Notes under the pieces: generated by a model
What the model was told of the DNA's origin: nothing
Seen by the model: the letters and a program-made list of their open reading frames with translations, nothing else
The model's database searches: none
Position numbers and translations under genes: made by a program
Origin: a virus
Length of the DNA stretch: 35,262 nt
Virus record (IMG/VR): IMGVR_UViG_3300037337_000041
Location: 1-35,262 of that record
Direction: 5' to 3' (one strand)
Shown here: one piece after another, positions 24,422 to 27,847 of the stretch
Layout: the number at the start of each line of letters is the position of its first letter
Position numbering within the stretch: the stretch's first letter is position 1

Positions 24422-24882
24422 GCTGACTCCCGCTCAACAGTCAAGCCCAGCGCATCCCGGGCGCATCGCAGGCTGTAAGGCGTAATCCTGTCACCGCTGT
24501 CATGGCGCTTGACGATCCGGCGTGCCCATTCCTTGCTGTCGCTGCGTGCTGGCGCCGGTGCCATGCCAGCCAGCACAATTGCCACGATTTCCGGGCTGGC
24601 TTTCGGTGCCTCCAGGCGCGGGGCGTCTTTTGACGGCGCGGCGCGGCACAGGTTGCGAAACTGGATGACGTTCGGGCAGCGCTCAGGCAGGCTATCCAGC
24701 GCGTAGCGGATGGCCGACGGGTTGCCAGCGTAGCCGCTCAATTCGTAGCCCCAAGCGGTTTTAACGTCCGACATCGGGGTACCCTCCCACTGACGTGTCC
24801 ACTGCGCCCCGTAGGTGCCTGCCAGGCGCACAAATAGCCAATCAATGGACTCAGCCATCGTCACAAGTGTTGTGCTGTTCAT
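24418..24882 (-). CDS. Candidate replication P-like protein (helicase loader)
   Basis: A 154-aa protein: ESIDWLFVRLAGTYGAQWTRQWEG, then DVKTAWGYELSGYAGNPSAIRYALDSLPERCPNVIQFRNLCRAAP, a Pro/Ala linker and a C-terminal basic helix (EWARRIVKRHDSGDRITPYSLRCARDALGL). The LF-x-RL-x3-YG and NP-x-AIRYALD-x-LP patterns are seen in proteins annotated as lambda P-like in Burkholderiales phages. It directly follows the O-like initiator with an ATGA overlap, as P follows O. Loading DnaB is therefore the likely role, but by position rather than by proven motif. Confidence 0.65.
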   Translation of the reverse strand: MNSTTLVTMAESIDWLFVRLAGTYGAQWTRQWEGTPMSDVKTAWGYELSGYAGNPSAIRYALDSLPERCPNVIQFRNLCRAAPSKDAPRLEAPKASPEIVAIVLAGMAPAPARSDSKEWARRIVKRHDSGDRITPYSLRCARDALGLTVERESA

Positions 24883-25685
24883 GCGATTCTCCGAATAGGG
24901 GTGGTTTGGGCTTCAATCACGTCGCGGCGGGCGTTGGCCGGTAAATCCTGCTCAGGCCACTTGCGGCCCGACATCAGCTCCCATGCTTCGCGTTTGGCAC
25001 GGGCGTCGCGCTCCGAGAACGACTCGGCGCTGTTGTGCTTGCTGGCTGTCATGGCGGCGGGGCCGTTGCGCTTGTTGCGTTGGGCAAACTTCGCTGCGTT
25101 GCGCGTCCATGTCCGAAATGCGGCTTGCCAGTCGGTAAACAGGGAGCCGTTGGCTTGGTGGTGGTCGGTGAAAGCCGCCAGCTCACCCGGGACGTTGACA
25201 CCCAGTGTTTCTGCCAGGCTTTCCGCCGTTGCATCGGGCTGGAAGCTTTCTGGCAAAACGCACTGACGTATCGTTTTCTTTAATGATGGTTCTGTGATGG
25301 TTCCATGATGGTTATATGCGGGTGCAACTGGCTGCACCCTTTCGTGTCGTGGATTGCACCCTTTAGCACCGTCAGTTGCACCCTTTTTGCGGGGTGCAAT
25401 TTCTGCACCCTTTATCCAATCAAGCGAAATTTGGTACTCACGGTGCTGATTTCGGCCACCGTTACCGGAGTTCACCAGAATCAGCCAGCCGTCAGACTCC
25501 ATGCGCCGCAACTGGTATTGCACGCTGCGTTCGGCTTGTCGGGTTTTGCCAGCCAGATGCTTGATGCTGGGGAAAATTCGCCCGCCATCATCACTGGCGT
25601 GGTCAGCCAGCGCCAATGCCAGCAGCATTTCTCCGCCGCCGTTGGGATAGCGCTCAAACACGGCGCTCATGACTTTTATGCTCAT
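24879..25685 (-). CDS. O-like replication initiator with winged helix
   Basis: A 268-aa protein. Residues about 1-95 are a winged helix-turn-helix: MLLALALADHASDDGGRIFPSIKHLAGKTRQAERSVQYQLRRMESDGWLILV. Residues about 95-135 are a low-conservation linker encoded by the iteron DNA. The C-terminal part (PESFQPDATAESLAETLGVNVPGELAAFTDHHQANGSLFTDWQAAFRTWTRNAA) looks like the DnaT-type DNA-binding region common in phage initiators. As in lambda, the origin appears to lie inside the gene. ATGA overlaps at both ends. Confidence 0.88.
   Translation of the reverse strand: MSIKVMSAVFERYPNGGGEMLLALALADHASDDGGRIFPSIKHLAGKTRQAERSVQYQLRRMESDGWLILVNSGNGGRNQHREYQISLDWIKGAEIAPRKKGATDGAKGCNPRHERVQPVAPAYNHHGTITEPSLKKTIRQCVLPESFQPDATAESLAETLGVNVPGELAAFTDHHQANGSLFTDWQAAFRTWTRNAAKFAQRNKRNGPAAMTASKHNSAESFSERDARAKREAWELMSGRKWPEQDLPANARRDVIEAQTTPIRRIA
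25284..25313. repeat. Three 8-bp repeats at 11-bp spacing (origin)
   Basis: TGATGGTT occurs at 25284, 25295 and 25306, exactly 11 bp apart, so all lie on one face of the helix. The flanks are A/T-rich (TAATGA, TTATAT). They encode the NHHGTITEPSL part of the initiator linker. Confidence 0.8.
25320..25414. repeat. AAAGGGTGCA iterons (origin)
   Basis: Read on the plus strand, TGCACCCTTT occurs at 25333, 25355, 25377 and 25404 (spacing 22, 22, 27 bp). Inverted half copies GGGTGCA lie at 25320-25326 and 25392-25398. Together with the adjacent 11-bp repeats this is the expected layout of an initiator-bound phage origin inside the O-like gene. Confidence 0.82.
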
Positions 25686-26386
25686 GCGGCCACCTCGCCA
25701 AACAGTTCGGCTAGATCAACCCCATACACCGCACCCCAGGCGCCAGCAGGCCATGCCTGTGCTTTGCCGTAGCGTGCACAGGGCACAGTCACGGATGTAG
25801 ACGCATTGCCCTTGCACCATGCCTTGAGCGGTCGCCAGTCTTGTTTGCCGAACTTCTTGCCGCTGGCACCTTCAACGGCGATTACCGTAGCGTGGCGGGT
25901 GTTGAAACCCAACTGATCGCGCAACTTTGTCGCTTCACGGGAGAACTTTGAAGCGGTCGCCATGGCAGTAGCGACTTTCTTGTCGCCAATCTGCGCTTTC
26001 GTAGCAATGGCGTGGTCGCGCTGTTCGATAGCAATCAAACGGCCCTGTTCACTTGCCATCGCCAGCTTGAGAATGTCCATCGTTGACAGCTCAATAGGTG
26101 CCTTTGCTTCCAGATCCTGCCAGCGGTCAACCAGCCGCGCTGTGAATTCCGGTGAGAGTTGGGCCACCACGACAAAGCTGTCGCGCTTTTCAAGCAGATA
26201 GACAGTTTCGACCACCCCATTTGCAGCCTTTTTCCCGTCCTCAATTTGAGGATAGGAAATCACGCCAGCATTTGCGAGGTCCGAGACAGTGCGCTTGACG
26301 TTGTCATGGCGCTTTTCAACCAATTCCGCAATCTCGCGGCTGGTCATGGTCTTGACGGCGTTGCCAATAATCGAAAGGTCGTTCAT
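25682..26386 (-). CDS. Rha-family phage regulatory protein
   Basis: A 234-aa protein from ATG 26386; the open frame to 26479 passes through a terminator hairpin and is rejected. The N-terminal half is pRha: MTSREIAELVEKRHDNVKRTVSDLANAGVISYPQIEDG and VYLLEKRDSFVVVAQLSPEFTARLVDRWQDLE. The C-terminal half has a helical linker and FNTRHATVIAVEGASGKKFGKQDWRPLKAWC, a KilA/ORF11-like end. Rha proteins are early regulators that interfere with phage growth in some hosts. The leader is structured and overlapped by a predicted antisense RNA, and no strong ribosome site is seen, so translation may be regulated. Confidence 0.88.
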   Translation of the reverse strand: MNDLSIIGNAVKTMTSREIAELVEKRHDNVKRTVSDLANAGVISYPQIEDGKKAANGVVETVYLLEKRDSFVVVAQLSPEFTARLVDRWQDLEAKAPIELSTMDILKLAMASEQGRLIAIEQRDHAIATKAQIGDKKVATAMATASKFSREATKLRDQLGFNTRHATVIAVEGASGKKFGKQDWRPLKAWCKGNASTSVTVPCARYGKAQAWPAGAWGAVYGVDLAELFGEVAA

Positions 26387-26389
26387 AAT
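26361..26389 (+). promoter_or_regulatory. Plus-strand sigma70-like promoter inside the rha start region
   Basis: TTGCCA (26361-26366), 17-base spacer, CATAAT (26384-26389): five of six matches to each consensus box with ideal spacing. The predicted start is near 26396, firing away from and antisense to rha, about 50 bases before a strong plus-strand terminator. Confidence 0.55.
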
Positions 26390-26395
26390 TACTTT

Positions 26396-26449
26396 GCTTT
26401 GAAGCAACCCACCCGAGCTGTTAGTGCAGCGCTGACGGTGGGTTTTTTT
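26396..26449 (+). ncRNA. Predicted short antisense RNA of the rha leader
   Basis: Promoter TTGCCA-N17-CATAAT and the terminator at 26406-26449 define an RNA of about 54 nt with no coding capacity. It is fully complementary to the rha leader just upstream of the start codon. It starts near the palindrome TTGCTT-TG-AAGCAA (26394-26407). By layout it recalls lambda oop RNA, which is antisense to cII. No expression evidence. Confidence 0.45.
26406..26449 (+). terminator. Strong plus-strand intrinsic terminator
   Basis: AACCCACC (26406-26413) pairs with GGTGGGTT (26437-26444), 8 bp, and the run of seven T's is 26443-26449. No plus-strand protein gene lies upstream, so it must serve a non-coding transcript or act as a leader structure on the opposite strand. 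Confidence 0.75.
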
Positions 26450-26486
26450 ATTTGCGGCTGATAAAAAGCGCAGCCACACCGCTCAT

Positions 26487-26807
26487 TCATACAGTGCTAA
26501 ACCGGCCCTTGGCGGGCTTTGATTTCGTGGCCTGTAACGTGGCAATGGAGTCGCGCTTGGGCACCACCAGCGAAGCGACAAGCCGGGCATATGCAGCCCG
26601 GCGCTTGTCGAGCTTGGCAACCAGCGTTTTGTCAGCACTGGACAGCGCGCAGGCTGCAGGCGATGTGAGGTCAAAAGTCGGCGTGACAGCCGACGTATGG
26701 GTAGGCTTTTGGCCTACAGCCTCCCCTGCTGCATCGCGGTAAATTTGATCTTCAGGAAGTGCGGCCACGTCTGGCTGGCTGGCTTGTGAAGGGGCTTGGT
26801 TTGACAT
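26487..26807 (-). CDS. Hypothetical early protein
   Basis: A 106-aa protein: Gln/Pro/Ser-rich start (MSNQAPSQASQPDVAALPEDQIYRDAAGEAVG), then a helical basic part DKTLVAKLDKRRAAYARLVASLVVPKRDSIATLQATKSKPAKGRF. No family recognised. It follows the Cro-like gene by 29 bases and precedes rha, a position where lambda-like phages keep cII or small regulators. The N-terminus looks disordered. Confidence 0.7.
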   Translation of the reverse strand: MSNQAPSQASQPDVAALPEDQIYRDAAGEAVGQKPTHTSAVTPTFDLTSPAACALSSADKTLVAKLDKRRAAYARLVASLVVPKRDSIATLQATKSKPAKGRFSTV

Positions 26808-26836: not shown

Positions 26837-27082
26837 TCACACGGCGGCAACAACGCTGCCCGACCGCACAAGCAAATGCTGCTGGGCGCGATCCGTCAGC
26901 GGCAGCTGTTCAAGCGTCAAGGCACCACCCGACACAGTGACAAACACATCCGCCATTCCCAGACCGATTTGTTTCTTTGCGTAGGCAATCTGGTTGCAAT
27001 AGCCCCGAGTCGTCTTCGCTTTTTCAACGAACTGGTCGCGACCGATCGGGGTCATGCCGAGATAGAAAGTTTTAAAGTCCAT
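26837..27082 (-). CDS. Cro-like / YdaS-type helix-turn-helix protein
   Basis: An 81-aa protein: MDFKTFYLGMTPIGRDQFVEKAKTTRGYCNQIAYAKKQIGLGMADVFVTVSGGALTLEQL. The RDQFVEKAKTTRGYCNQIAYAKK segment and the following helices match small Cro/YdaS-type DNA-binding proteins. It is transcribed away from the S24 repressor and is the first gene of the leftward early operon, the usual place of cro. The predicted mRNA start coincides with the ATG, so the message may be leaderless; no ribosome site is seen. Confidence 0.8.
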   Translation of the reverse strand: MDFKTFYLGMTPIGRDQFVEKAKTTRGYCNQIAYAKKQIGLGMADVFVTVSGGALTLEQLPLTDRAQQHLLVRSGSVVAAV

Positions 27083-27088
27083 GCGAAT

Positions 27089-27116
27089 AGTTTACCCGAA
27101 GGTAATCTACTGTCAA
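27089..27116 (-). promoter_or_regulatory. Early promoter for the leftward (cro-rha-replication) operon
   Basis: Minus strand TTGACA (27116-27111), 16-base spacer, TAAACT (27094-27089). The -35 is perfect. An operator lies within the spacer (27092-27105) and another directly upstream (27116-27129). The predicted start is 27082, the first base of the Cro-like ATG. Confidence 0.75.
27092..27105. promoter_or_regulatory. Repressor operator, spacer copy (TTACCTTCGGGTAA on minus)
   Basis: A 14-bp site with perfect TTACC/GGTAA arms, between -35 and -10 of the leftward early promoter. It matches sites 28609-28622 (13 of 14), 28584-28597 and 27116-27129. Confidence 0.75.
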
Positions 27117-27129
27117 TGCCTGAAGGTAA
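27116..27129. promoter_or_regulatory. Repressor operator, upstream copy (TTACCTTCAGGCAT on minus)
   Basis: An imperfect copy, centre to centre 24 bp from the spacer operator. It overlaps a possible upstream ATG of the repressor (27116-27118), so repressor bound here could control its own gene. Confidence 0.6.
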
Positions 27130-27154
27130 AACACCTAGTGGCATTCTTCGGGTC

Positions 27155-27847
27155 ATGGATGTTTACGACCGGCGACGTGCCAAATTGAAAGAGCTGCTTA
27201 CACACGTAAGTGCGGCGGAACTTTCACGCAGTTCTGGCGTGGCAGCCAGCTATATCAGCCGTTGCTTGCGTGAGCCAGGCTCAGATGGCTACAAAAATAT
27301 GGGTGAGTTGATTGCGCGAAAGCTAGAAATAGGGGCGCGCAAGCCAGAAGGTTGGATTGACGCAACAGATGATGAAACGTCAGTCAACCAAGTAAGTCGA
27401 TTTGCTGAAATAGACCTAACCAACAACCCCGACTACCCAGCTATTCGCCGGGTGCGATTCAGGCTGTCGGCTGGCGCCAGCGGCTTCGCCATTGAGTACC
27501 AAGACGACGAAGACACTCCTATAGTTTTCGGCAGCGGCTGGTTTGCAAAACAGAACCTCAAGCCCGATAAGCTGTTTGCCGTAAATGTTTCAAACGGCAG
27601 CATGGAGCCAGGGTTGCATCATGGGGATGTGGTGGTGGTCAATACGGAAAGCACGGAACCCAAGGACGGCATCGCGTTTGCAGTCAACTACGAGGGCGAG
27701 TTGATCATCAAGCGCCTGATTCGTGACGCTGGCGAATGGTGGCTTTCAAGTGACAATCCAGATCAGCGCCGTTATCCGCGTAAGCTATGCGGCCAGGATG
27801 TGTTTTTGGTTGGCGAGATCATTCAGAAGCAAAGCCAGCGAATTTAA
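27155..27847 (+). CDS. CI-type repressor, S24 (LexA-like) family
   Basis: A 230-aa lysogeny repressor from the ATG at 27155 (MDVYDRRRAKLKELL, the usual start of this group); an ATG at 27116 would add 13 residues but lies in an operator. Residues about 15-55 are a helix-turn-helix (VSAAELSRSSGVAASYISRCLREPG). The C-terminal S24 domain has the nucleophile Ser149 in NGSMEPGLHHGDVVVV and the general base Lys186 in EGELIIKRLIRD. An Ala-Gly pair (106-107) is a possible self-cleavage site, so induction by RecA is likely. It shares a transcript with the secreted protein downstream. Confidence 0.93.
   Translation: MDVYDRRRAKLKELLTHVSAAELSRSSGVAASYISRCLREPGSDGYKNMGELIARKLEIGARKPEGWIDATDDETSVNQVSRFAEIDLTNNPDYPAIRRVRFRLSAGASGFAIEYQDDEDTPIVFGSGWFAKQNLKPDKLFAVNVSNGSMEPGLHHGDVVVVNTESTEPKDGIAFAVNYEGELIIKRLIRDAGEWWLSSDNPDQRRYPRKLCGQDVFLVGEIIQKQSQRI

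Follow-up and report, generated by a model that had tools for sequence, protein, structure and literature searches.

Known and Predicted RNA Control of Phage Antirepressor Genes

The sar RNA of phage P22 is a textbook antisense RNA and is, to our knowledge, known from one phage group. The oop RNA of phage lambda covers the 3′ part of cII, whereas in phages P1 and P7 the C4 RNA and ant are transcribed in the same direction, from one strand. In P22, the antisense RNA sar has a length of 68/69 nt and blocks the translation of its target, the antirepressor gene ant (PMC12197685, PMC13397905); the length of oop is 77 nt (PMC12197685). Leader RNAs of the P22F/IsrK type, which precede rha or antQ, belong to the sense strand (PMC13397905, PMC4825925). 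No antisense RNA of rha was met in the literature that was searched, an absence that is not proof, and the sar-like module at an rha gene described here appears to be hitherto undescribed.

The module is located in a virus record of 35,262 nucleotides, the whole of which is referred to as the window. Judged from its sequence, this phage very probably makes an antisense RNA of about 54 nt opposite the rha start, in the design of P22 sar. Among the hundreds of other phages and prophages compared, predicted modules of this kind are frequent at rha genes.

The Early Region of the Window

In the window, the gene of a CI-like repressor with an S24 peptidase domain (27116–27847, plus strand; Pfam 8.6e-20) is oriented opposite to a minus-strand early operon comprising a small ORF in the cro position (26837–27082), an ORF of 106 aa to which no function is assigned (26487–26807), rha (25682–26386) and, downstream of it, the gene of an O-like replication initiation protein (24879–25685; PHROG 1032, 3e-24). 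The order CI, Cro, antirepressor, O, P is also present in Pseudomonas phage MD8. Between cI and the cro-position ORF, scanning located a minus-strand promoter, TTGACA-N16-TAAACT (27116–27089), which by its position would be the early, pR-like promoter and from which the rha mRNA is expected to come. Its −35 box coincides in part with the start codon of the CI-like gene (27111–27118). The rha product contains the Phage_pRha domain (PF09669; Pfam 8.7e-10) and matches PHROG 4936 as well as anti-repressor Ant PHROGs; an antirepressor role is predicted. Its start codon ATG occupies positions 26386–26384, and the leader, the intergenic stretch up to the 106-aa ORF, covers 26387–26486 (minus strand). 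Close DNA relatives of the window were not found among named phages, and a DNA search against 300 genomes of the Ottowia family gave short chance matches only.

Promoter and Terminator Opposite rha

A near-consensus plus-strand promoter over the rha start had been recognized by the sequence-only reading, and it stands: TTGCCA-N17-CATAAT (26361–26389) matches the consensus in 10 of 12 positions at a 17-bp spacer. The −35 box (26361–26366) lies inside rha codons 7–9, and the −10 box (26384–26389) overlaps the start codon, being the complement of ATT-ATG. Further along the plus strand an intrinsic terminator is found (26406–26449), the arms of which, AACCCACC (26406–26413) and GGTGGGTT (26437–26444), enclose an inner hairpin (26417–26430) and are followed by a T-run (26443–26449); the 8-bp stem and the seven T's claimed earlier are both present, except that the stem takes up two of the seven T's. 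With the 5′ end assumed 7 nt past the −10 box and the 3′ end at the T-run, a sar-like RNA of about 54 nt (26396–26449, plus strand) is predicted, which would lie over about half of the rha leader. The paired part of the leader would lie upstream of approximately position −10, and the weak SD-like AAAG and the start codon would be spared, so that its pairing with the whole leader had been overstated. A plus-strand protein gene that could be served by these signals is indeed missing, as the genes recognized in this region (rha, the replication gene, the 106-aa ORF, and the cro-position ORF) are all encoded on the minus strand.

Two promoters with 10/12 matches or a PWM score of at least 11 are contained in the window, namely, the antisense promoter and the early promoter; since shuffled windows yield 1.3 promoters of such quality each, the antisense promoter alone is not significant. 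Neither is the promoter box of the window evidence when taken alone, because synonymous recoding of the first rha codons retains the promoter (p 0.50). The joint arrangement of a promoter (PWM score of at least 11) and a terminator of −12 kcal/mol or better within the following 110 nt occurs once in the window compared with a mean of 0.00 in 30 dinucleotide shuffles, as scored with promoter and terminator rules that are the author's approximations and with a sigma-70 matrix of approximate E. coli frequencies, applied to the viral contigs whatever their host.

The hairpin might also be read as a leader or intercistronic structure of the rha mRNA, serving stability, translation or attenuation, with the antisense promoter as a chance by-product of ATTATG and the coding sequence. 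Starts of the form ATTATG yield CATAAT for free, and in the rha gene of the window the amino acids (Gly-Asn codons) nearly dictate the −35 box. Against a leader structure speaks the position of the U-tract on the antisense side of the hairpin, not on the rha sense strand, and so does the folding, with −21.4 kcal/mol and a z-score of −2.95 versus shuffles for the antisense strand and a z-score of −1.25 for the sense strand.

Comparison with Described RNAs

The predicted RNA shares with P22 sar an antisense promoter of the sigma-70 type where the target gene begins, a terminator-like hairpin in the target leader with an RNA of 50–75 nt (less than about 80 nt), and an inner loop (CTGTTA..GCAG) that looks alike. 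When applied to P22, the same start and stop rules place TATACT with a 17-bp spacer at ant codons 3-4 and give about 69 nt (hand count). In contrast to P22, the target in the window is a pRha gene and not ant, and it is part of the early operon, whereas P22 ant belongs to immI. The window has its −10 box over the start codon, 9 bases further upstream than in Psar, and for this reason the RNA would begin just upstream of the SD and cover the leader only. The sar hairpin, finally, is devoid of a strong T-tail; the terminator rule would therefore miss sar, and the module counts given below are probably conservative. Since there is no overall sequence homology between the window and the sar/ant region, the resemblance being confined to the short loop, the window RNA is classified as sar-like and not as a sar homologue.

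Lambda oop, which the sequence-only reading had chosen as the analogy, resembles the predicted RNA in being short, antisense, and terminated and in belonging to the early right operon. The RNA of the window, however, would cover the 5′ leader of rha, and not, as oop does next to the replication gene, the 3′ part of cII. The better match is P22 sar, whose target is the leader of the antirepressor gene ant. The C4 RNA (RF01695) of P1/P7 likewise exemplifies RNA control of an antirepressor gene, though with a fold of its own, and an Rfam scan of the window at gathering and permissive thresholds gave nothing credible, including no match to RF01695. A C4 RNA is present in an Ottowia genome (L099:2277–2363), about 0.6 kb before a rha-like fragment. 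P22F/IsrK-type RNAs are also structured RNAs just upstream of rha; in the window, however, the terminator U-tract is antisense, and the sense-strand terminator of that type was not found. Long sense-strand inverted repeats near the start codon were seen in the enteric rha loci L024, L081, L092, and L304, and these resemble the sense sRNA P22F, which is located just before P22 rha (PMC13397905).

Occurrence of the Module at rha Genes

rha loci were collected from viral and genome contigs, prophage loci being gathered by the Pfam model (HMM), and the choice of start codons relied on reading frame, position, and ribosome-binding site, blind to hairpins and promoters. The first 195 rha leaders comprised 43 with an antisense-facing and 9 with a sense-facing terminator; the corresponding first count among 501 other co-directional genes was 19 and 16. 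In the pooled set, an antisense-facing terminator is found just upstream of the start in 57 of 207 non-redundant rha leaders and a sense-facing one in 12, whereas the other genes of the same loci show no asymmetry (19 versus 20). An ordinary intergenic hairpin is ruled out by these proportions. The module is optional, since 150 of the 207 rha leaders are without such a terminator.

The antisense terminator is combined with an antisense promoter (PWM score of at least 8) in 39/207 rha leaders, a combination seen at 4/469 of the co-directional genes other than rha in these loci (OR 27, p 2e-17), and among the rha leaders themselves the presence of one element is associated with that of the other (OR 13, p 9e-14), the p-values being approximate because redundancy was reduced but related leaders are still present in the sets. 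This association, together with the excess of antisense-facing hairpins at rha, also argues against a mere leader structure. Over the same stretch of terminator-bearing leaders, the promoter score is 8.7 on the antisense and 4.7 on the sense strand (p 2e-10). Measured against synonymous recoding of the first codons, promoters are in modest excess where the leader bears a terminator (combined p 0.001) but not in the other rha loci. The predicted RNA lengths across rha loci cluster at 50–75 nt (median 56, IQR 54–70), with which the 54 nt of the window agree. Hairpin sequences vary between the loci, while the architecture is retained. The sequence elements are thus present in the window and recurrently paired at rha starts of many unrelated phages, which lends weight to the compact cis-antisense RNA proposed by the sequence-only reading, itself a predicted molecule. 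Among named phages, the module is found in Vibrio K248, MD8 has the terminator with a weak promoter, and SETP3 and several others lack the module.

Some recurrent details were seen in these loci. The otherwise different hairpins of L208, L210, L493, and L498 share a GCTCCCCAGC-like loop, and some other hairpins have GTTGC or GTTACC loops; it is possible that these are loops at which pairing starts. In Acinetobacter-type loci (L021, L023, L048, L086, L183, and L186), an antisense-facing hairpin occurs just before a second gene (MNSM..), approximately 790–800 bases past the rha start. Bro-N regulator genes (L605–L664) display a pattern weaker than that of rha, with an antisense-facing terminator before the start in 9/59 versus 3; some of the Bro-N genes with such a terminator also have an antisense promoter.

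Promoter Geometry and Held-Out Sets

The −35 score of 28 hairpin-bearing discovery clusters has a single maximum, 2.29, at a 17-bp spacer counted from the −10 box formed by the start codon, which is the spacing of the window; adjacent spacings score about −2, and 54 loci without hairpin show no peak at 17 bp (−1.98). The distance of the conserved protein motif varies from 10 to 28 residues, and the peak follows the start codon and not the motif (1.05 versus −0.71), by which a mirror image of the conserved protein motif is ruled out.

A held-out prophage set of 54 new clusters, many of them from the family of Acinetobacter sp. ANC 3929, contains 17 antisense-facing and 3 sense-facing terminators, and the antisense promoter score is 9.2 with an antisense terminator versus 4.9 (p 5.5e-6). 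The exact placement of the −10 box on the start codon is absent from this set, in which promoters occur at scattered positions around the start; a universal geometry of that kind is rejected. What is conserved is therefore the module, a promoter and a terminator that would yield an RNA of about 55 nt where the gene begins, and not one geometry. An extra viral set of 22 clusters is compatible but weak, the exact geometry being weakly seen (p 0.048, n 5).

Relatives of the Window and Module Boundaries

A DNA pattern search for the hairpin of the window retrieved L102–L104 only. In L102 and L103, the leader and the rha start are 89–91% identical, while the genes before them are unrelated (38–42%), from which it follows that the module can move with rha.

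L104 is the only close relative of the window and the only contig (L104/L105) with a relative of the 106-aa ORF. It has retained the hairpin together with the preceding gene, rha is replaced by another gene (ParB-like by eye), and in place of the strong promoter there is a weak one only (5.8). Between the 106-aa ORF and the base of the hairpin (L104:4045–4081; window 26405–26486), L104 and the window are nearly identical, with one mismatch, although the 106-aa ORF products are only 84% identical, and the homology ends at the hairpin base. A stem kept without the promoter, which the sequence-only reading would have taken as pointing to a leader structure, was thus found once, in a contig that has also lost rha. 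L104 is read as a recombination junction at the hairpin, because a loss of rha necessarily removes the promoter contained in it; the hairpin may still have a role as a leader structure. With L104 and the codon constraints on its side and the orientation, folding, and distribution of the hairpins against it, a leader structure with a chance promoter is an unlikely explanation of the locus.

Proposed Mechanism

The preferred reading, to which a probability of roughly 0.77 is given, is that of an antisense RNA which starts from the promoter at the start codon, pairs with the leader, and holds down Rha translation. The promoter, constitutive-looking and of the sigma-70 type, with the complement of the rha start codon as its −10 box, would drive an RNA of about 54 nt that runs away from rha and stops at the intrinsic terminator in the rha leader. 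Being the exact complement of this leader stretch, the RNA would pair with the early mRNA beside the ribosome-binding site, by analogy with sar and ant of P22. Translation of Rha would be held down as long as sense transcription is low, as in the lysogen or after repression, and the antisense RNA would be outrun once the early promoter is strong. Transcription, pairing, repression, and timing are what we infer from the elements, with the translational repression of Rha modelled on sar.

An RNA that is small and perfectly complementary could also exert its main effect in trans, providing immunity to superinfection by phages that share the rha leader. STnc6030 (PMC7067206) and C4 (PMC12197685) act against an incoming phage or set heteroimmunity, and a constant architecture with varying hairpin sequences would suit such a function; on the other hand, no feature found here tells cis from trans, and sar is described as controlling the ant mRNA of its own phage; a mainly trans-acting RNA is considered quite improbable. 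Least probable of all is a terminator acting as an insulator that halts stray antisense transcription before the operator and cI, the short RNA being a targetless by-product: transcription from 26396 does head towards cI, 0.7 kb off, and if not stopped would run antisense to the first part of the early operon, and the module boundary in L104 is at the hairpin, but in L102/L103 the module is flanked by a RusA-like gene and rha and a cI gene is not seen beside it, and promoter and terminator keep about 55 nt apart.

Significance

Extending the preferred reading of a translation-controlling antisense RNA beyond this phage, sar-like antisense RNAs may constitute a general, repeatedly re-made layer on antirepressor-type genes of phages (pRha, perhaps Bro-N), which keeps its architecture and not its sequence and is present at about one-fifth of the sampled rha loci; in that case, RNA-based immunity specificities among related phages could be determined by the variable hairpins. 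This generalization is tentative, its chances being put at somewhat less than even. Should the module be as frequent at rha genes as the comparison indicates, an RNA layer would have been overlooked on many regulators of the lysis-lysogeny decision. Such modules, which are missed by sequence-based RNA families, would be findable by a simple architectural rule, and a single promoter box in rha codons 7–9 would provide a handle for testing the roles of Rha proteins.
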